A stretch of 49,088 nt of DNA from Candidatus Nitrosocaldus sp. (lineage in GTDB: Archaea > Thermoproteota > Nitrososphaeria > Nitrososphaerales > Nitrosocaldaceae). Where the stretch lies: the NCBI GenBank assembly GCA_025054855.1, contig JANWZS010000005.1:49126-98213 (forward strand). The letters run 5' to 3'. The notes beneath the pieces were generated by a model. That model had not been told where the DNA came from and did not search any database. It saw nothing but the letters and a program-made list of their open reading frames with translations. Made by a program: the position numbers and the translations under genes. This document shows, in pieces, positions 5,155 to 48,375 of the stretch; position 1 is the first letter of the stretch, and every line of letters starts with the position of its first letter.

Positions 5155-6222
5155 TCATGTGCGCCTGCTGGTCCACGGATCTATCCCAGTCAGGTACCTG
5201 AATGCATCTATCAGCCCCTCAGCGTAACCAAGCGCAAGTATCGCATGCTCGTACCTGTGCTCCCTCGCAAACCTCTCAGCATCGCTCAGGTAGTATCCAG
5301 CATTATCCATCATATCCTTCATGCTCGAATACATTGCATCCCGTTCAACTCCACTGGCAAGATACCCTCTAGCCCTGGATAGTGCTGAGTATGCCCTAGG
5401 TATGTAGCTGGAGAGCATCACCTCAGCCCTTGCCCTAACATGCCTGCTGTTATCTATAGGCTCATCGAGCAGGTTGGCAGATACCCTGAGGGCCTCTACC
5501 TCAGTGAAGTGCAGTGAGCCAGTGACTATGATGGTATGCGGATGCCTCCCAAACTCATGCCTGAGCAGCGAACCTATCTTACCCCCGACTATGCTCATAT
5601 CCTCCATACCAACCCTGGATGCCACTATGGCAAACGTATCGCTGCTGATCACACCCATGCGCTCCCTAGCCTCACACTCGAGGAGTATCCTTAGAGCATC
5701 ATCTGGTGCAAGGGAGTATCCACGCTCCTGATCGTACTCGAGTAGGAGCATCGTGTGGTTCATCTGCATGAGGTTGCTGTAGAGTACGTAGTACGTGCTT
5801 GTGCTTGCCATGGGATCAGAGACCAATGTTGCTACCCTCCCCAACCTGTATACATGGAGCCCACACTCACCAAGTACTGCAGTGACTATGGATGAGGAGT
5901 GTATAACCCTGCACCCTATCCCAAGGCTCCTTGCCCTAGTGATGAGTTCTGTATGCGTTGTAGCAACGAGTGGATCACCGTACGTGATGAGCACCACATC
6001 ACCCACCTTAGCCTCATCCAGCAGCATCCTACCATCCTCAACGAACCATCTATGCACGATCACCACATCAGCCCTCAGAGCCCTCAGCGCATCCATATCC
6101 TCATCCCTAACAGGGCTTGTGTATGCCTCAACATACACCTTATCTGCGCCCTTTATGGCATCTACAGCATCGATACTCAACCCCCTGTAGCCATACACGC
6201 CCATACCTGCGAGTGTAAGCAT
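5155..6222 (-). CDS. dphB: Diphthine synthase fused to a C-terminal DUF357-like helical domain
   Basis: Residues 1-260 are a tetrapyrrole-methylase-fold SAM methyltransferase of the DphB type: LTLAGMGVYGYRGLS at the N-terminus, ADKVYVEAYTS, and YGDPLVATTHTEL. DphB methylates the modified histidine of elongation factor 2 on the way to diphthamide. Residues about 270-350 form an extra helical domain (AYSALSRARGYLA, MDNAGYYLSDAERFA, HAILALGYAEGLIDAFRYL) that resembles stand-alone archaeal DUF357 proteins. Euryarchaeal DphB is about 260 residues, so this 355-residue form is a fusion. The ATG is at 6222, with a TATA (ATTTTATT, reverse strand, about 6246-6254) some 27 nt upstream, so it is leaderless. 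Confidence 0.85.
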   Translation of the reverse strand: MLTLAGMGVYGYRGLSIDAVDAIKGADKVYVEAYTSPVRDEDMDALRALRADVVIVHRWFVEDGRMLLDEAKVGDVVLITYGDPLVATTHTELITRARSLGIGCRVIHSSSIVTAVLGECGLHVYRLGRVATLVSDPMASTSTYYVLYSNLMQMNHTMLLLEYDQERGYSLAPDDALRILLECEARERMGVISSDTFAIVASRVGMEDMSIVGGKIGSLLRHEFGRHPHTIIVTGSLHFTEVEALRVSANLLDEPIDNSRHVRARAEVMLSSYIPRAYSALSRARGYLASGVERDAMYSSMKDMMDNAGYYLSDAERFAREHRYEHAILALGYAEGLIDAFRYLTGIDPWTSRRT

Positions 6223-15610: not shown

Positions 15611-15729
15611 TGGACCGGGCGGGATTCGAACCCGCGACCTCTCGCTGGTCCCGACGTGCTACTCACCCATCTGCACGTGCAGGACCATCCGCGTGCGAGG
15701 CGGACATTCTACCGCTGAACTACCGGCCC
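15611..15729 (-). tRNA. tRNA-Ala (anticodon CGC) with a 47-nt intron in the variable region
   Basis: Read on the reverse strand, exons fold into a 72-nt cloverleaf. The acceptor GGGCCGG/CCGGTCC contains the G3-U70 pair that defines alanine. D stem GTTC/GAAT, anticodon stem TCCGC/GCGGA with loop CTCGCAC (anticodon CGC), T arm GCGGG-TTCGAAT-CCCGC, and discriminator A; CCA is not encoded. Between position 43 and the variable loop lie 47 extra nt (about 15641-15687) that pair into TGGTCCTG/CGGGACCA and ACGTGC/GCACGT helices, as expected for an archaeal intron cut by the bulge-helix-bulge endonuclease at a non-canonical site. Exact splice points could shift by a few nt. Confidence 0.88.
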
Positions 15730-33917: not shown

Positions 33918-34997
33918 TTAGAACAACTCCTGTATAAGTAATGAGTGTAGGCCAGATGCATAGTTCTCATAACCCTGTGATAGCGCATGTGCAACTATAC
34001 ACTTCCTCCCCTTGACCTCACCAACCATGAAATCCCTTGCAGTGCTGAATAGCTCGTTCCTGCCATTGAACTCCATGACATCGAATATCCTTCCAGCAGA
34101 GTCTGCAAGCACTACTCCCTCACTATTAGTTATACATGCCCTTGTATGCCTCTTCTCCCTCTCTGGCAATGGTATATTCTCAACTATTCTCTGAGCAAAC
34201 TCCTTCCACTTGAATATATTTGCTAGTACGCCTATAGTATTACCACTACTACCATTATCATCCTTGATTACGCTTGAGAATATGAGCACTAACCTGTTAT
34301 CTGCCAGGGGTGAGTGATGTACGCTCTCGAACCCGAATCTGTTCCTGAATGCTGTTCTGAACCACTCAGCATCCTTACAGTTCCTGCCCTTAAGCATAGC
34401 ATTCCTACCACTAGCAACTACATTACCATCTACATCACATACAACTATATCATGATAGACTGTATAGGCATCAAGTATTATTGCTAGCCTCTTCTCAAGG
34501 TTCCTTATGCTATCTCTACTCCTGCTCTTCAATGCTTCTATCGCATAAGAGTCATGTGCCCACCATGTAACATCGCTTGCCCTCTCGTAGAGGCTCCTAT
34601 CAACTATATCTATGTTGGTTAGTGCGATATCTGCGAGCCTGTTACCCTTCACGATAACTGACTGCTCCATTATCGCGCTGCTCAACTCCTGCATATTCAT
34701 CTCACCCTTTATCCTCCTCGTTATACTCTCAACCTTCTTGTTGAGTTCACTCATATAGCTTGCAACGACACTGAATGTCTTCCCTGCTTCACCAGCCCTT
34801 GCTGCCTCTATGAGCGCATTGACAGCAAGGAGGTGTATCTCCTCGTTTATCTTCTCTATCTCATCTATTGCCTTGACGGTGTTATCAGTCAGCCTGTACG
34901 CTAGATCCGCTATCTCCTCAAGTGTAGCCTCCTTGCCTTTCCTGCCATTAGCCTTGCCCTGTATGGTACTTGCAGCATCATGCACCTGCATATCCAT
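33918..34997 (-). CDS. Soluble MCP-like protein with inverted domain order (signalling tip first, sensor last)
   Basis: A 359-residue protein without membrane segments. Residues about 30-95 match the tip of the methyl-accepting receptor signalling hairpin ([20 protein letters not shown], then [18 protein letters not shown]), which normally binds CheA/CheW and lies near a receptor C-terminus. Residues about 130-350 look like a Cache/PAS-type sensor ([51 protein letters not shown]). Sensor-after-signal order is rare. The hairpin is short, with no clear methylation helices, so CheR/CheB may not act on it. Reverse-strand TATA (ATTAATAAATC, 35013-35023) about 22 nt upstream of the ATG is shared with the divergent mcp. 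It may be a cytosolic receptor or a modulator of the array. Confidence 0.75.
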
Positions 34998-35082: not shown

Positions 35083-37326
35083 ATGAAGATGAAGTGGAGC
35101 ATCCAGCGCAAGTTCGCCATGATGTTCATAGCAATGGCACTTATACCACTGGTTGCTGTATCCATGCTTCTTTTACAGGGTACAAGGGACAATCTATTGA
35201 ACGGGATAAGCACGAAGTACACCAACATAGCCGAAGATAGGGCAAACATAGTCAGGAGTGTTATAGAGACCAGGATGAAGCAGGCATCTGTGCTAGCATC
35301 AAACATAGGTTCAAGCATGGACGATGAGCAATTGATTAGGGGTAACATGGAGTTTCTCTGGAAGGAGTTGAGTGCAGTGGGGGCTAACCCCAAGATCATA
35401 TATGTTGCAGATAGCAGTGGTAAGGTGATAGCAAGTAGTGATGGGAGCAGGGAAGGGAGTAGCATAAGTGGGCATGAGATATTCGGTGAGGTTAGCAGTG
35501 GCAAGAGTATAGGAAGGATAGGCAGGGATGAGCAGGGTATGGTACTGCTCATAGGTGCGCCGATCATGCATGATGGTAAGGTTATAGGCGTAGTTATATT
35601 CGAGACCAGGGGAGGGGTGTTCATGAAGGCTCTTCTCAACAGGGAGAACCTTGGAGAGACTGGGGAGACGTATCTGGTGAATAGGGATATGCTGATGGTA
35701 ACCCCGTCGAGGTTCATCGAGGGGGCTGAGTTCAAGCAGGTAGTAGATACCATGCCAGTGAGGGAATGCTTCACCAATGGCAAAAACGTAGATGGCCAGA
35801 TCTATCCAGATTATAGAGATGTGCCTATATTCGGAAGCTCATACTGCATGAGCGATCTTGGGTTGGTGCTACTTGCAGAGATAGATGTGGCTGAGGCACT
35901 TGCCCCAGTACATGCCATGGAGCAGACTACATGGTTGATAGTTGGTGGTGTGGGGGCAGGTGTAGGAGCACTCTCGCTATTCGTGAGCAGGTCAATAGCA
36001 AGACCGCTGGTAGCGATAAGCAGCAAGGTTGGCATGTTAGGTTCTGGCAATCTGAATGTGAGTATAGATGGGGTTAAGAGCAACGATGAGATAGGTAGCT
36101 TAGCATCATCGCTGAATGGTACTATAGCCTCGTTCAGAGACCTAATAAGCAATGTTAAGATGAGTGCAGATAGCGTGGTCAGGAATGTGCAGGAGCTAGG
36201 GACATCCGTAGAACAGATAAACTCATCTATGCAGCAGATATCCACAGGAATACAGCAGGTTTCAAGGGGCTCACAGGATCAGGCATCAAGGATCAATGAG
36301 ATAAGCAAGAATGTCGAGGGTATAACGATAAGCATAAACGATACCAACAAGAAGATGAATACACTCGTAGAGTTCTCGAACGAGGTTGCAGAGACTGTGA
36401 GGAAGAGCATGAACTCTGCTGAGCAGGCAAGTAGAAGTCTGGAGAGTATGATGAATGTCAGCAATGAATCGTCTAACAAGATGAATGCATTGCTTGAGAA
36501 GACTGCTAGAATAACAACCGTACTAGATGTTATACAGAAGATTGCAGAACAGACCAACATGCTTGCACTCAACGCTGCTATAGAGGCAGCAAGGGCTGGT
36601 GAAGCAGGGAGAGGGTTTGCTGTAGTTGCTGAGGAGGTTAGAGCATTGGCAATGAACTCTGCAAAGGCGAGCGAGGAGATTGCCAGGATAATAGAGGATA
36701 TACAGAATGATGCAAAGAGTACTGCCGATATAATAAACATGAATGCAAAGGAGGTTGGTGAAGGCAAGGTAGTCATAGAGCAGGGAGTGAAGGGTCTAGA
36801 GAATATAGCATCAAAGGTTCAGGAGATGATAGGGCTGGTGAATGGGGTCAGCTCACAACTACAGGCACAGATAAGCTCCATAGATGAGATAAATAAGAGC
36901 ATATCTGAGATAGCTGCGGTATCGGAGGAGAATGCCTCAGCGACTGAGGAGATAACTGCTGCTGTTGAGGAGCAGAGTGCAGCACTACACGTTATAACAG
37001 AGAAGGTGCAGGAACTGATAAGATTGAACGAGGAGTTGAAGAGGTCCATGGCAGGATTCAAGTTTGATAAGGAAGATGGTAGGCATGATGTGATGGTGAA
37101 GGAAGAAGGGCAAGCAGGTGGTAAGCGTGGAGAGGGCAAGTTAAAGCAAGAAGCGGAAGAGAGAGTAGTAGGGAAGGAGAAGATGAACGATGGAGGTAAG
37201 AGCGGTAAGAAGGGTAAGATAATAGAGGTCAGAGCACCTGCGCCTACAAGATATGCAGATGGAGGGACTAGTATAGGCAATGGTCATGATGACACTAGTG
37301 ATATTGCAAATGGTAGCAATAGGTGA
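35083..37326 (+). CDS. mcp: Transmembrane methyl-accepting chemotaxis protein
   Basis: A 747-residue chemoreceptor: membrane span 1 (about 10-28), an extracytoplasmic Cache-like sensor (about 30-280, with [16 protein letters not shown] and [20 protein letters not shown]), span 2 (about 283-302), HAMP (about 303-355), and a long cytoplasmic coiled coil with the conserved tip [20 protein letters not shown] at about 485-505. The last 70 residues are Lys/Glu/Gly-rich with no CheR-docking pentapeptide. It senses an external ligand and controls CheA. ATG 35083 is drawn; ATG 35089 has AGGTG at better spacing (7 nt). The frame stays open upstream to 34810 only because it overlaps the divergent gene. 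It is first of mcp-cheW-cheY-cheB-cheA. Confidence 0.93.
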
Positions 37327-39280: not shown

Positions 39281-40987
39281 ATGAGTGACATAGACAGTAA
39301 CAAGGAGTACAGGGAATTATTTGTGATAGAGGCGAATGAGCATATCCAGAACATGAATAATGAACTACTAGCATATGAACAGGATGGTGCTAGAGAGCGT
39401 ATAGACAGCATATTCAGATCAGTTCATACGTTGAAAGGTATGGCAGGTACTATGGGTTATGAGAATATAAGGCTTCTGTGCAAGACCATAGAGAATGTCC
39501 TTGATGCACTCAGGAATGGAAGCATGGGATTTGAAAAGCGTATAGCAGATGTACTCTTCAAATGCTTTGACGTTCTGAGCAGGCTAGTCAATGATGAGAA
39601 TATAATGCTGGATATCTCAACATATATAGATGAGCTATCATCACTTGTAGTTAACAGAACTGCCGATGCTGCAGAGAATGATGATGGTAGTAATGGTACA
39701 GTTGGTGTTGGTAACAGTAACAAGAGCGAGATATCAAATGAGCAAGATCAGTTACCCACCACAATCACAGTTAGGCTCGAGGATCTAGATAGGCTCGTTG
39801 ATCTCGTGGGAGAGCTGGTCATAGCAAAATCTAGACTGAGGGGCATGATCATGAACAACAATGCTACCATGGAGGCCCAACTGACACACCTTGATAGACT
39901 GATCTCAGATCTCCAGTACAATGTTATGAAGCTCAGGCTAGTTCCATTGAGCACTGTATTCAGCAGATTCCCGAGGCTTGTTAGGGATACCGCATCCAGG
40001 GTGGGCAAGGAGGTCAAGCTTGAGATCGAGGGGGCTGAGTTGGAGGTCGATAGGAGCATACTCCAGGCGATAACCGATCCTCTGGTGCATATGCTAAGGA
40101 ATGCCATAGATCATGGTATAGAGAGCAGGGAGGAGAGGATCAGCAAGGGCAAGGGAGAGGTTGGTCTTGTGAAGGTTACTGCGAGCAAGGTTGAGGACAG
40201 GATAAGCATAACGGTGGAGGATGATGGTAAGGGTATAGATGTTGAGGCCTTGAAGAAGAAGGCCATAGAGAAGGGTCTGATAAGCAGTGAGGAGGCAGAG
40301 AAGATGAGCGATGATGAGGCACTAAGATTGATAGGGACTCCAGGGTTATCTACAGCGAAGGAGGTGACAGATATATCTGGTAGGGGCGTTGGTATGGATG
40401 TTGTATTCAGGCAGGTTAGCAAGTTTGGAGGTTATGTGAGCATAGAGAGCAGGAAGGATGTAGGCACCAGGATCACACTGAACATACCCATGAACGTGTC
40501 CATAATATCTGGTCTACTTGTACACGTATACGGGGAGAGGTACATAATACCCGCATCGAACGTTGTAACGACTATGAAGGTTAAGAGCAGCGAGGTGATG
40601 CATATACACGGTAGGAAGGTAATAAGGATAAGGGATAAGGATGATGGTGATGATGGAGGTGTGGATAAGATAATACCGCTTGTAGAGATGGCCTATATGC
40701 TAGGCATAAATGGTTACAGTCCTGGTAATGATAATGGTAATGGTAGTAGTGGTAATAGTAGTGGTGGTAGTAGTAGTAGTGGTAATGGTAATGACAGCAG
40801 CAGCAGTATAGTCATAGTCAACAACAAGGGCAAGAGTATAGGATTCATAGTGGACTCATTCGAGTATATGAAGGAGATAGTGGTCAAACGTGTTGCAGGG
40901 TTGAACGGGAGGTTCGTTGATGCAACGATAGCCTCTGATGGTTCGGCTGTGCTTATACTGGATATAGCACAGTTGGTAAGAGGTTAG
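39281..40987 (+). CDS. cheA: Chemotaxis histidine kinase CheA without a P2 domain
   Basis: A 568-residue kinase. P1 HPt domain 1-105 with phospho-acceptor H49 (RSVHTLKGMAG). Residues about 110-160 are a Ser/Asn/Asp-rich linker where the CheY-binding P2 domain usually sits; no P2 fold is seen. P3 dimerisation 162-225 (DRLVDLVGELVIAKSRLRG); P4 ATPase with N box HMLRNAIDHGIE, G1 EDDGKGID and G2 GRGVGMDVV; P5 CheW-like about 400-568, interrupted by a Gly/Ser/Asn insert at about 480-508. It phosphorylates CheY and CheB. ATG 39281 has GAGGTGA overlapping the cheB stop. A short piece of P3 sequence is duplicated at 44673-44749. Confidence 0.94.
   Translation: MSDIDSNKEYRELFVIEANEHIQNMNNELLAYEQDGARERIDSIFRSVHTLKGMAGTMGYENIRLLCKTIENVLDALRNGSMGFEKRIADVLFKCFDVLSRLVNDENIMLDISTYIDELSSLVVNRTADAAENDDGSNGTVGVGNSNKSEISNEQDQLPTTITVRLEDLDRLVDLVGELVIAKSRLRGMIMNNNATMEAQLTHLDRLISDLQYNVMKLRLVPLSTVFSRFPRLVRDTASRVGKEVKLEIEGAELEVDRSILQAITDPLVHMLRNAIDHGIESREERISKGKGEVGLVKVTASKVEDRISITVEDDGKGIDVEALKKKAIEKGLISSEEAEKMSDDEALRLIGTPGLSTAKEVTDISGRGVGMDVVFRQVSKFGGYVSIESRKDVGTRITLNIPMNVSIISGLLVHVYGERYIIPASNVVTTMKVKSSEVMHIHGRKVIRIRDKDDGDDGGVDKIIPLVEMAYMLGINGYSPGNDNGNGSSGNSSGGSSSSGNGNDSSSSIVIVNNKGKSIGFIVDSFEYMKEIVVKRVAGLNGRFVDATIASDGSAVLILDIAQLVRG
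40722..40807 (+). repeat. In-frame GGTAAT/GGTAGT microsatellite in cheA
   Basis: An 86-bp run of GGT, AGT and AAT triplets ending in AGC repeats codes for about 28 Gly/Ser/Asn/Asp residues inside the P5 regulatory domain. It looks like slippage-made sequence comparable to the smc hinge repeat. Confidence 0.85.
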
Positions 40988-41056: not shown

Positions 41057-41153
41057 CGCCCTGGCCGGGATTTGAACCCGGGCCGCAGGTGTGACAGACC
41101 CGCATACTGGACCAGGTTTTACGGCTCGTAGCGAGCCTCTATACTACCAGGGC
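41057..41153 (-). tRNA. tRNA-Asp (anticodon GTC) with a 22-nt intron in the D loop
   Basis: Reverse strand. Exons form a 75-nt cloverleaf: acceptor GCCCTGG/CCAGGGC, D stem GTAT/GTAT, anticodon stem CGGGT/ACCTG with loop CTGTCAC (anticodon GTC), T arm CCGGG-TTCAAAT-CCCGG, and discriminator G, an Asp identity base. The D loop carries 22 extra nt (about 41117-41138) including a perfect GGCTCG-CTA-CGAGCC hairpin; removing them restores a normal AGCCTGGTCCA loop. This is a non-canonical archaeal tRNA intron. CCA is not encoded. It is divergent from tRNA-Lys, 116 bp away. Confidence 0.9.
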
Positions 41154-43816: not shown

Positions 43817-44404
43817 ATGATAGGTATATATACATACATGGATGGAATGCATGTTGGGGATAGGGTGAAGGTACTGGCCATAGGATTGGTATCTGGGTTT
43901 GCTGCAACGCTTATGGTAGCAGGGGTGATATCTGCTGGAGAGGCACTCGCCAACTACCCCCATGGCCTATTCTACCTTGTTATAGGTGGTGCTCTAGGCT
44001 TTGGTACCAATGTAACATACGCCACAAGCATGGGTATAACGATGCATATCGCTGCAGGGACCATGCTAGGCCTAATCGCAACCGTACCTCTAGCAGTATC
44101 TAGTAGGATGCTTATGAGCATATCAAACATCAACCGCTCCCTGATCTATGGTGTGATATTTGGGCTCCTTGTATGGGCACTCTTCTTCATCCCAGTATCA
44201 TACATGCTGGTTATGCCGGCGCTGAGTACGCATGATGGTATGGTACTCGATAGATCTGGCAGTGTCATAATGGATATGAGCGCATTGTTCACCAAGGTAA
44301 TCTACTACGCTATAGGCATACACATACAGTATGGGGTGACGTACTCTATTCTTGCTGGTGTACTGATAAGCAGAACTGTGATGATGCTACCGCTTGAGCG
44401 GTAA
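43817..44404 (+). CDS. Polytopic membrane protein, unknown function
   Basis: A 195-residue protein with about four membrane spans (about 18-42, 50-92 in two parts, 107-130, and a C-terminal one near 160-185). No transporter or enzyme motif is visible; Gly- and Ser-rich helices with conserved-looking His (GITMHIAAGTML, GIHIQYGVTYSI) might bind metal or haem, but this is a guess. ATG 43817 is drawn; ATG 43838 and 43847 are in frame. The region upstream (43780-43815) is very A-rich. Confidence 0.6.
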   Translation: MIGIYTYMDGMHVGDRVKVLAIGLVSGFAATLMVAGVISAGEALANYPHGLFYLVIGGALGFGTNVTYATSMGITMHIAAGTMLGLIATVPLAVSSRMLMSISNINRSLIYGVIFGLLVWALFFIPVSYMLVMPALSTHDGMVLDRSGSVIMDMSALFTKVIYYAIGIHIQYGVTYSILAGVLISRTVMMLPLER

Positions 44405-44908
44405 GCTGAGATGGCCTGATGGTGTAATGATTATGGATTTAGATAAGATCATCCTACATACGTCAGTTTATACTTAACATTATAAGCAATTACCCGTCAG
44501 CCCATAGTTGGGTATGAATATGATCACGTGATGATCGTATCGTGTATACTCGTATATAGCATACCTAGAACCCTCCACATTCATGTATCCGCCTTGCTAG
44601 CCTCTATCATCTCCCCTGGCATCTACCTTAACCCCAATTGCTAATACTATCGCTCATATTGATAGGCCCTCCATCTGCTGAATACAGTGCTCAATGGAAC
44701 TAGCCTGAGTCTCTAACATTGTACTGTAGATCTGAGATCAGTCTATCAACTTGCCTATCTGGTACTCCTGTACCCTCTTGCTAACCAATAAACCCAAGGA
44801 TTCTCGCACCACTCTATTATACTAACGTAATATTTCAAGGCTAGTGTTATCAAGAATTCGTATAGTTCAGCCGAAGATAACAAATAAAAATAAAGAATAA
44901 TTATCGAG
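44405..44908. other. 504-bp spacer with gene debris and no intact gene
   Basis: No open reading frame of useful length on either strand. It contains a 77-bp inverted copy of cheA sequence (44673-44749), a 10-bp palindrome ATCACGTGAT (44523-44532), and short stop-broken stretches on the reverse strand with coding-like composition (for example around 44520-44640). It looks like a decayed gene region or a landing site for duplicated fragments. A non-coding RNA gene is possible. Confidence 0.5.
44673..44749 (-). pseudogene. Fragment of cheA (P3 domain) in inverted orientation
   Basis: The reverse strand of 44673-44749 aligns to cheA 39891-39968 with three mismatches and one missing base in 78 columns. 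In cheA the segment codes for about 26 residues of the P3 domain after THL. Here the single-base deletion shifts the frame and in-frame stops follow, so no CheA protein is made. Similarity stops abruptly on both sides. The + strand of this fragment is antisense to cheA mRNA. Confidence 0.85.
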
Positions 44909-45460
44909 CTAGAAGATCCTGTTTCCTGCAACTATATCATACTTGAACTGCTGGCCACTAGCCGTCTCAACTACCACCGTCAGATTTGTACCAGCACTAA
45001 CAGCACTGGTTAATCTCAGTGTCAGTGAATCAGTGCTTGATGGATTGATTGTGTTTGTACCGCTACTTACACTGGAGCCGAAGTGGAACTGTCCTGCTGC
45101 CAGTGTACCACTATTGAAGCTGTATAGGGCGCCGTTAACATACACCTTGCTTATCTGCACTGCCTGTGGGGAGTTGTTCTTTATGTACATCCCAACGTAT
45201 GCTATTGATGATGAGTTGTTTGCACCAGTTATACCCCCGCCTAGATGATTGAGTAGTGGATTCACCTGTCTAGCATCGTAACCCAGCAGCTGTAGGCTCT
45301 CCGCAACTACGTTCTGTGGTGCAACCTTGCTAGATATGTTCTGGAAGTATGTGTATACTACTACCCCTCCTACCACTGCAATTGCTACCAGCATGAGCGT
45401 TGCTATTATTGGTGATACACCTCTCTTCGCAGCCCTTCTTAACTCGGGTATCTCTTCCAT
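44909..45460 (-). CDS. Archaeal type IV pilin-like protein
   Basis: A 183-residue class III signal peptide protein. Leader MEEIPELRRAAKRG with cleavage after G14, core VSPIIATLMLVAIAVVGGVV then VYTYF, and a Ser/Asn/Gly-rich beta domain (IAYVGMYIKNNSPQAVQISK, LTLRLTSAVSAGTNLTVVVE). SPIIATLMLVAIAV is the hallmark of archaeal pilins rather than archaellins. ATG 45460 is chosen because a reverse-strand TATA (CAAATTATTTTC, about 45484-45495) lies 27 nt upstream; the frame is open to 45511. It is divergent from the second large surface protein and close to a secretion ATPase, so it probably builds an adhesive pilus. Confidence 0.85.
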   Translation of the reverse strand: MEEIPELRRAAKRGVSPIIATLMLVAIAVVGGVVVYTYFQNISSKVAPQNVVAESLQLLGYDARQVNPLLNHLGGGITGANNSSSIAYVGMYIKNNSPQAVQISKVYVNGALYSFNSGTLAAGQFHFGSSVSSGTNTINPSSTDSLTLRLTSAVSAGTNLTVVVETASGQQFKYDIVAGNRIF

Positions 45461-45492
45461 GTAAGATCGTTTATACTCGATATAGAAAATAA

Positions 45493-45519
45493 TTTGTATG
45501 TAAATACTCACAATTACAA
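45493..45519. promoter_or_regulatory. GTATGTAA motif and imperfect inverted repeat between pilin and surface protein 2
   Basis: TTTGTATGTAA (45493-45503) faces ATTACAA (45513-45519), giving TTGTA/TACAA arms, followed by a direct copy of GTATGTA near 45523. The site overlaps the expected promoter of the pilin gene and lies 40 bp before the surface-protein ATG. Same core as at 31128; close to GTTTGTAA at 22209. Confidence 0.45.
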
Positions 45520-45558: not shown

Positions 45559-48375
45559 ATGAATGTAAGAAGTGTAAGTATGAGCATGCGGATGTACATG
45601 TTGGTGTGCTTCATAGCATTTATGCTACTCCCCATACCCAAATCGTACACATCCACAGGTTACGAAGATCTCTTGATAAACTTAGCCATCGTTCCTGATA
45701 TAGTTGAGCGAGGAAGTGTGATAAAGGGTTTCGTCTATATCACTGATAGGGAGGGTAAGCCCGTTCCTGCGTGGGAGGATGTTACGGTAGAACTTGCATC
45801 CAACTCGCTAGTCTCACTGCCGCATAGTGTTACCATCAAGGAGGGTCACTTCTACACATCGTTTGAGTTGGAGACCAGAGGTACAGGGGAGGCGAGTGTA
45901 ACTGCAGTATATGGGAGGCAGATAAGTACAGATATCGTGAAGATCATTGATACACATAATAGCACCCATGCTAAAGGGAAGCTAATGTTTGAGATCAGAT
46001 CGCTCACAAGTAATCTACACATGCTTACTGATTCAGAACTCCCGCTAATCCTCTCTATAAAGGATGATGCTGGAAGATACGTGCCAGCACCAACAGACCT
46101 GTATGTTAGACTGTCTTACAGCACTGAACTGATAACCGTTGAGTATAATCCCTATATACCTAAAGATACATCATTCACGCTTCTGAAGGTAAGGAGTTAC
46201 AACTCTGTTGGTATAGCGTACGTAACTGCACACACTGATCTCGATGGTGAGAATGTGGTAACATCAACAAGCATATACATCACATCAGATGGTGCGACCA
46301 GACTGAATGTGAACTTACTTCCTCCAATAGTAAGTAAAGGCTTCACATATGTAGATATATTGATAACACTTATGGATGCCAATGGTGTGCCAGTACTTGC
46401 AGATAGAGATATAGTGGTTAAGATTACATCAGATTCGCCAGCATTGCACAAGCTCGATGAGAACTCTGCACGCTCCAAGTATGTTATAAGAAAGGGTGAA
46501 TATAGTCTCATAAGTAGGGAGCACGCTATATTCGCCTCTACAGGCAAGGTGAGTGTGAGCGCAAGTGCTAGTGGCCTGATGGGAGGCTCTGCTACCCTTA
46601 CCATAGTTGAGCCATTGAGTGAGAATAGTACGAAGAGTAAGGAGAAGGTTCTCAGACTATTTCTGCCTGAGAGCATAGCAAATGGAGGCACGATGAGTGT
46701 TGTATACCAACCATATGCCATTGAAGATGATGGTGATGACTGCCCTAGGTTGGATAAGATAGGCACTGTCAAGGAAGAAGATAGGCATGTTGGTACCATA
46801 GATTTGAGTAGTGTGGTAGAGGAGTGTGACGCAGAAGGCTATAAGGTTCACAATATAGACCTCTTAGAGCATGGGGAGGTATATCCCATAAGTAATGGTG
46901 TAGCAAGAGGGGCATACGTCACAGTCAACGATGCCTCACTGGAGGTTGTATCTAACAATGTAGTTCATAACGCTTATGGCGTAATCACGGTGAAGGGTAA
47001 TAGTAGAAGCAATGAAGAGGTAACACTCTCTGTAAACATGCAGGGTGCTGGTAGTACCAGTGCTAAAGTACAGATCATAGGCAGTAGATTGCCCCATCAA
47101 ACACTTACAGCGCTATATGAGGATACCTCTAGTTACAGATTATTCATAACGGTTGTTGAGTATGGGAACAGGCCTATAATGACCGATATGAGGTATATTA
47201 TAAATCCACTCGCCATATTGGTTGAGATCAAGGGTTCATCGTATGCAGAAGTGGTACTTGAAAAGGGTTCCATAGGCGCACAAGGCCTAGATATAGTGCC
47301 GATAGGAGTGGATGCTAATGTAGCCCTCACATCCCGTGTCAGTCTTGCAGATGACATCTACGATGATGTCATAATAACACTACCCTTCACTACCTTACTA
47401 TCGATCAATGGGGAATACAGGATAGGGTACGTGCAGCTCTTCAAGGGAAACACCATATATACTGCTACTAAGGATACGAAGATAAGACTCGCATCATCTG
47501 ACGATAGTGTGCTTGTACATGATGCTCTGGTAAGGAAGGGTAGTTCATTCGGTGAGTTCACGATAATTCTTACGAATACTAGTAGGGAGAGGAATGTTGA
47601 GATAACCGTGCTAGATAAGGGGAGAAGGAGCATCGATCTCTCTATAGTAGAGAGAGAATTTGATGAGCCAGACATTATAGCATATAGCAATGGTGATGAG
47701 ATAGAGGTCAGGTTATATACTATGAGGAATGCAGAGATAGTATGGAGAGAGATAGATGGCTATACCTATATCCAGAAGGATGATAAGGTTGTTAGGGCTG
47801 ATGGAAGGGGCTTCTACGCCAAGGCGGTGCTCAAACCACTCTCCGAGTGGCAGCAACTCAACGTAGATGCCATGATAGTTGCGCCTGGATACAAGGTATA
47901 CAGTCTGAATTACACCGTATATGAGCTACTACCTCGTGCAGAGGACGGAGATGGGATACTCAGCATATCTGTAAAGACCCGTGACCTGTACGCTGGAGAG
48001 ACTGGGTACATTGATGTATTCGTAAGTGATGTCATGGGAAATCCAGTCAGTGCAACCAAGATCAATATCTATGGGTCAGATGGTGTGGAGGTTCTCACCA
48101 ATACATTGTACACTACAGACGATGGTAGTGCTAGAGCATTCATCAAGGCGGTTAAGGACTCAACCATATACATAGAGGCTAGCAGGACTGGGTACAGTAG
48201 CGCAAGCATACAGATACCATTGCGTGTGACCATACAGGAGCATAAGTATCAAGATACCATTGCAGTAGGTATCAATCACTACATACTCATTGGCACATCA
48301 GTAGCGGGAGTTGCAGCAATACTAACCTTCATGATGAAGAGCAAGAGGAGAAGTTATGCAGATGAAGATTCGTAA
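45559..48375 (+). CDS. Large membrane-anchored surface protein 2 with Ig-like repeats
   Basis: A 938-residue protein with signal peptide (MYMLVCFIAFMLLPIPKSYTS), about seven to eight beta-sandwich modules, and a C-terminal membrane anchor with basic tail (YILIGTSVAGVAAILTFMM then KSKRR). Modules repeat VxDxxGxPVPA, DVTVELxSNSLVxLP and VxIKEGxFxTxFxL patterns as in surface protein 1 at 31194; the last module (LYAGETGYIDVFVSDVMGNP, DDGSARAFIKAV) resembles Big/invasin or carboxypeptidase-regulatory-like beta domains. It is likely displayed at the cell surface. It lies between a pilin gene (divergent) and a secretion ATPase gene 13 bp downstream, so it may be part of, or co-regulated with, a pilus. 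Function unknown. Confidence 0.8.
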   Translation: MNVRSVSMSMRMYMLVCFIAFMLLPIPKSYTSTGYEDLLINLAIVPDIVERGSVIKGFVYITDREGKPVPAWEDVTVELASNSLVSLPHSVTIKEGHFYTSFELETRGTGEASVTAVYGRQISTDIVKIIDTHNSTHAKGKLMFEIRSLTSNLHMLTDSELPLILSIKDDAGRYVPAPTDLYVRLSYSTELITVEYNPYIPKDTSFTLLKVRSYNSVGIAYVTAHTDLDGENVVTSTSIYITSDGATRLNVNLLPPIVSKGFTYVDILITLMDANGVPVLADRDIVVKITSDSPALHKLDENSARSKYVIRKGEYSLISREHAIFASTGKVSVSASASGLMGGSATLTIVEPLSENSTKSKEKVLRLFLPESIANGGTMSVVYQPYAIEDDGDDCPRLDKIGTVKEEDRHVGTIDLSSVVEECDAEGYKVHNIDLLEHGEVYPISNGVARGAYVTVNDASLEVVSNNVVHNAYGVITVKGNSRSNEEVTLSVNMQGAGSTSAKVQIIGSRLPHQTLTALYEDTSSYRLFITVVEYGNRPIMTDMRYIINPLAILVEIKGSSYAEVVLEKGSIGAQGLDIVPIGVDANVALTSRVSLADDIYDDVIITLPFTTLLSINGEYRIGYVQLFKGNTIYTATKDTKIRLASSDDSVLVHDALVRKGSSFGEFTIILTNTSRERNVEITVLDKGRRSIDLSIVEREFDEPDIIAYSNGDEIEVRLYTMRNAEIVWREIDGYTYIQKDDKVVRADGRGFYAKAVLKPLSEWQQLNVDAMIVAPGYKVYSLNYTVYELLPRAEDGDGILSISVKTRDLYAGETGYIDVFVSDVMGNPVSATKINIYGSDGVEVLTNTLYTTDDGSARAFIKAVKDSTIYIEASRTGYSSASIQIPLRVTIQEHKYQDTIAVGINHYILIGTSVAGVAAILTFMMKSKRRSYADEDS

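Follow-up and report, generated by a model that had tools for sequence, protein, structure and literature searches.

Why does a gene-free spacer in a Nitrosocaldus-type ammonia-oxidising archaeon contain a near-identical, inverted piece of cheA, about 4.7 kb from the gene itself? The sequence-only reading of this locus offered two answers: the piece could be the remnant of a duplication or inversion, left by a recent copy, or it could give rise to an RNA antisense to cheA mRNA that tunes CheA. We analysed the window, a stretch of 49,088 nucleotides from the source genome (G000, a 42-contig draft), and compared it with five other species of the genus (G001-G005). The fragment is, with good confidence, a non-functional inverted templated insertion at a rearrangement junction that is now inert.

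The match itself is secure. When the spacer was compared with the window using blastn, 44673-44749 (+) aligned with cheA 39968-39891 (-) at 74 of 78 columns (94.87% identity; three mismatches and one gap; E ~1e-27, 120 bits), reproducing the coordinates, orientation and count first claimed. Chance does not account for it, as had been argued: the best of 200 order-1 Markov-resampled spacers reached 39 bits against the window. The differences are C/A, A/G and G/A plus the one-base gap, and the loss of this base relative to cheA confirms the reported frameshift and leaves the fragment non-coding. Across the whole genome (1.56 Mb), matches were found at cheA and the spacer only; there is thus a single extra copy. 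Table 1 lists the features of the locus.

Table 1. Features of the cheA fragment, its source and the surrounding genes (window coordinates).
Feature	Position	Strand	Basis
cheA, intact 568-aa histidine kinase, source gene	39281..40987	+	Pfam: Hpt, dimerisation, HATPase, CheW; orthologues in 5/5 congeners
Source stretch in cheA, codons ~204-229, end of P3 dimerisation domain	39891..39968	+	blastn, Pfam, pairwise alignments
195-aa membrane-protein-like ORF (ORF 43817), last gene of conserved che-side block	43817..44404	+	sequence, gene order
Gene-free spacer of 504 bp on which two genes converge; species-specific synteny breakpoint	44405..44908		ORF list, gene-order comparison
Left arm GATAGGC of 7-bp inverted repeat just outside fragment	44661..44667	+	weak, noticed after the fact
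Non-coding inverted 77-bp copy of cheA stretch, with a one-base loss and three substitutions	44673..44749	-	blastn, genome search, alignments
Right arm GCCTATC of 7-bp inverted repeat just outside fragment	44753..44759	+	weak, noticed after the fact
Pilin-like ORF, first gene beyond breakpoint	44909..45511	-	N-terminal sequence; no Pfam match
938-aa protein, weak Ig-like-domain match, paired with pilin-like gene	45559..48375	+	Pfam; pair elsewhere in G004:C10, G003:C17

With the genome in 42 contigs, some of the junction might have been misassembled, and the fragment could then be an artefact of the draft. We consider this extremely unlikely: relative to cheA, the fragment has lost one base and carries three substitutions, and these four differences, together with exact runs that reach no more than 37 bases, argue against a simple chimera; cheA itself is intact. 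We also rejected a copy carried by a mobile element or virus, as no exact 32-mer match was found in viral contigs and the genome holds one extra copy.

Pairs of this kind are uncommon here. In 489 kb of this genome, a sample that includes the flagged window itself, the fragment and cheA form the only ORF-to-non-open-spacer pair at 85% identity or more. The same genome has a 142-bp direct repeat (90%) on contig C33 (L069, 4940-5081 / 5970-6100), its copies ~0.9 kb apart and both outside open frames. In 400 kb of G001, besides other repeats, we found one comparable pair, in which a non-open stretch matches an open frame of 117 aa over 89 bp at 92% (L088 13462-13550 / L094 245-333); it may be another gene scrap of this kind or a mobile element. 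Within the window, blastn returned two non-self matches at E<=1e-3, one being the fragment and cheA. The other, also inverted (34781-34867 / 36524-36610, 78%), joins two opposite-strand ORFs with a conserved chemoreceptor signalling motif and is ordinary. The window also holds a tRNA gene at 15611-15729 (-), recognised by Rfam (57 bits) and missed by ARAGORN as run; some 48 extra bases follow its anticodon stem and are probably an intron. Just downstream of cheA, 41057-41125 (-) gives a borderline tRNA-like match (29.1 bits against a gathering threshold of 29), and the relatives' loci have none at the same place and strand.

How long was the copied piece? The spacer lies between two ORFs, one on the + strand that stops at 44404 and one on the - strand that stops at 44909; its size had been given exactly, and it contains no recognisable gene and no Rfam match. 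The sharp end of similarity that had been noticed by eye also held up under anchored extension: alignments continuing past the fragment ends were equally good in 97 of 120 (left) and 35 of 120 (right) random placements in the cheB-cheA stretch. Since flank extension equals background, about 77 bp were copied, unless a longer piece has been cut back to this length. The fragment could instead be all that is left of a longer inverted duplication, or of a decayed cheA paralogue, after its flanks were deleted or overwritten. Parts of the spacer around the fragment are pyrimidine-rich on the + strand, as an old - strand gene would be, and with permissive settings the alignment runs on to about 190 columns, although the same controls place that extension at background. 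Neutral flanks copied together with the fragment should also be ~95% identical, and translated searches with the flanks found no match in the genus, the family or Pfam. A longer copy is therefore unlikely. Just outside the fragment, a 7-bp inverted repeat occurs in an arrangement seen in 0.7% of random placements; it is only suggestive, a hint of mechanism at most.

The relatives indicate the direction of copying. Each of the five congeners has one cheA (protein identity 77-81%). Searching their genomes with the spacer matched cheA or nothing, so that no second cheA-like copy was found genome-wide, and comparing their che-side loci with themselves gave no such duplicate. The comparison of the spacer with related genomes, which had been proposed as a check, thus finds the fragment absent from 5/5 congeners; such absence was one of the two findings that, taken together, were to mark it as inert debris. 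We read the four differing columns from pairwise alignments of the fragment stretch with the orthologues, and at these the relatives side with cheA (ATGAAG in 5/5, CTC in 4/5). The changes therefore lie on the fragment side, as one substitution and one cluster (the lost base and two substitutions), and the spacer copy is the derived, decaying daughter. In G005, a 39-bp near-perfect palindrome (87%) lies in cheA just upstream of the fragment-matching stretch (L037 2180-2218, turned so that cheA is on +).

From these comparisons, the copy arose after the species split. Fourfold-site differences in cheA between species are 51-60%, and three substitutions in 77 bases would, with a Jukes-Cantor correction, put the age of the copy very roughly at a tenth of that of the split, with a large error because only three changes carry the estimate. 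At cheA the congeners differ by about 20%, too much for any of them to serve as a close strain that would date the copy or tie it to the rearrangement described below.

Gene order changes at the spacer. G001, G002, G004 and G005 share with this genome the gene order cheB, cheA, PNPOx-family gene, HMG-CoA synthase, ORF 43817. After ORF 43817, G002, G004 and G005 all have one common gene, followed in G004 and G005 by ORFs that, judged by eye from sequence, are pdxS- and pdxT-like. Here, ORF 43817 is followed by the pilin-like gene and the long protein with the weak Ig-like match, a pair that occurs elsewhere in G004 and G003, and the homologue of the common gene lies on another contig (C39:39087). 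G001 is different, with an ATPase-like ORF after ORF 43817 and the common gene some 88 kb off. In G003, a fragmented draft, HMG-CoA synthase and ORF 43817 form a block that lies beside cheA in reversed orientation (G003:C23, L035, 10931-13310, cheA turned to +), and the right-hand break of this block falls at the position of our spacer. The comparison places a gene-order breakpoint of this species in the spacer, at a point that has changed repeatedly in the genus. The published genome of one congener, characterised as 'dynamic', carries a pilus locus adjoining its che cluster (PMC5797428). The match of the pilin-like gene to G003:C17 2055-2654 (L052) crosses three stop codons, and the open frame in G003 is 190 aa; because the stops lie near one end of the match, the start of 44909-45511 (-) may have been placed too far upstream. 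A reciprocal breakpoint was not recovered on C39, where the genes beside the displaced neighbour are not those expected. None of the five congeners has an alignable pre-insertion site, which leaves microhomology at the junction unreadable.

The second of the two original readings fared less well. It would have a + strand RNA from the spacer, started from its own promoter or by read-through from ORF 43817, pair with cheA mRNA over 77 bases and lower CheA. The orientation and the near-full complementarity would permit pairing, and ORF 43817 reads towards the fragment, so read-through could occur. There is also a TATA-like hexamer, TTTATA, on the + strand at 44467, but it is the sole one on that strand and sits 206 bases upstream of the fragment. 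Bacterial promoter and terminator scans are inapplicable to archaea and were excluded from the evidence. The complementarity is decaying on one side, with no compensating change in cheA, and it is confined to this species among those compared; the + strand pieces fold no better than shuffles (z -1.1 and 0.7); the spacer matches no Rfam family; and the target would be mid-gene rather than the start region. On these grounds, an antisense RNA tuning CheA is very unlikely. In one version of this reading, which we regard as highly improbable, the regulator would be newly born, a template-switch accident in one species having created a source of RNA able to pair with the parent cheA. Our search of the literature on sRNAs born from gene fragments found nothing relevant. 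If transcribed, the fragment would illustrate how an antisense RNA can emerge in a single step; nothing here supports transcription.

We return to a templated insertion. What is observed is a single inverted copy, present only in this species among those compared, with a readable direction of copying and abrupt ends, at a species-specific synteny break. These are features expected of templated insertions: origin from a nearby locus, a single extra copy, bounded ends and a gene order changed relative to relatives. The first of the original readings, a duplication or inversion remnant left by a recent copy, is borne out by the single extra copy, its absence in five congeners, the changes on the spacer side and the location of the breakpoint. 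In both E. coli and humans, short stretches of nearby sequence are often found where rearrangements join, and are explained by template switching in fork repair (PMC3161906). In our case, a replication fork may have broken or stalled around the point downstream of ORF 43817; during repair or restart, a DNA end would have taken the opposite strand of cheA, 4.7 kb off, as its template for a brief stretch of about 77 bases and would then have been joined to unrelated sequence. This join was plausibly part of the rearrangement that brought the pilin-like/Ig-protein pair beside the che-side block. We infer that copying and rearrangement happened in a single event and that the molecular step was either a template switch or end joining. 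Since then the copy has decayed, with no sign of selection. As debris, it is a small, clean marker of chromosome rearrangement next to the chemotaxis genes of thermophilic ammonia-oxidising archaea. Scraps of this sort, though uncommon here, are no new kind of object.

Several known systems resemble the fragment in part. Like trans-encoded antisense RNAs, an RNA from the fragment would be complementary to a coding mRNA, but its complementarity is not conserved among the five congeners. Like the template and variable repeats of diversity-generating retroelements, it is a short, non-coding near-copy close to a gene, but the stretch it matches lies away from the 3' end of cheA, and its mismatches and gap are not adenine-specific. 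Gene-fragment pseudogenes in spacers are closer, being non-coding, frameshifted and decaying partial copies of functional genes; compared with these, the fragment, at 77 bp, is very short, and it sits in inverted orientation near its parent gene. The MMBIR-type templated insertions described in starving E. coli (PMC3161906) differ in that the fragment is known from its product alone and its host is an archaeon, yet they share with it a short piece from nearby, inverted, in a single copy, with abrupt ends and a change in gene order.
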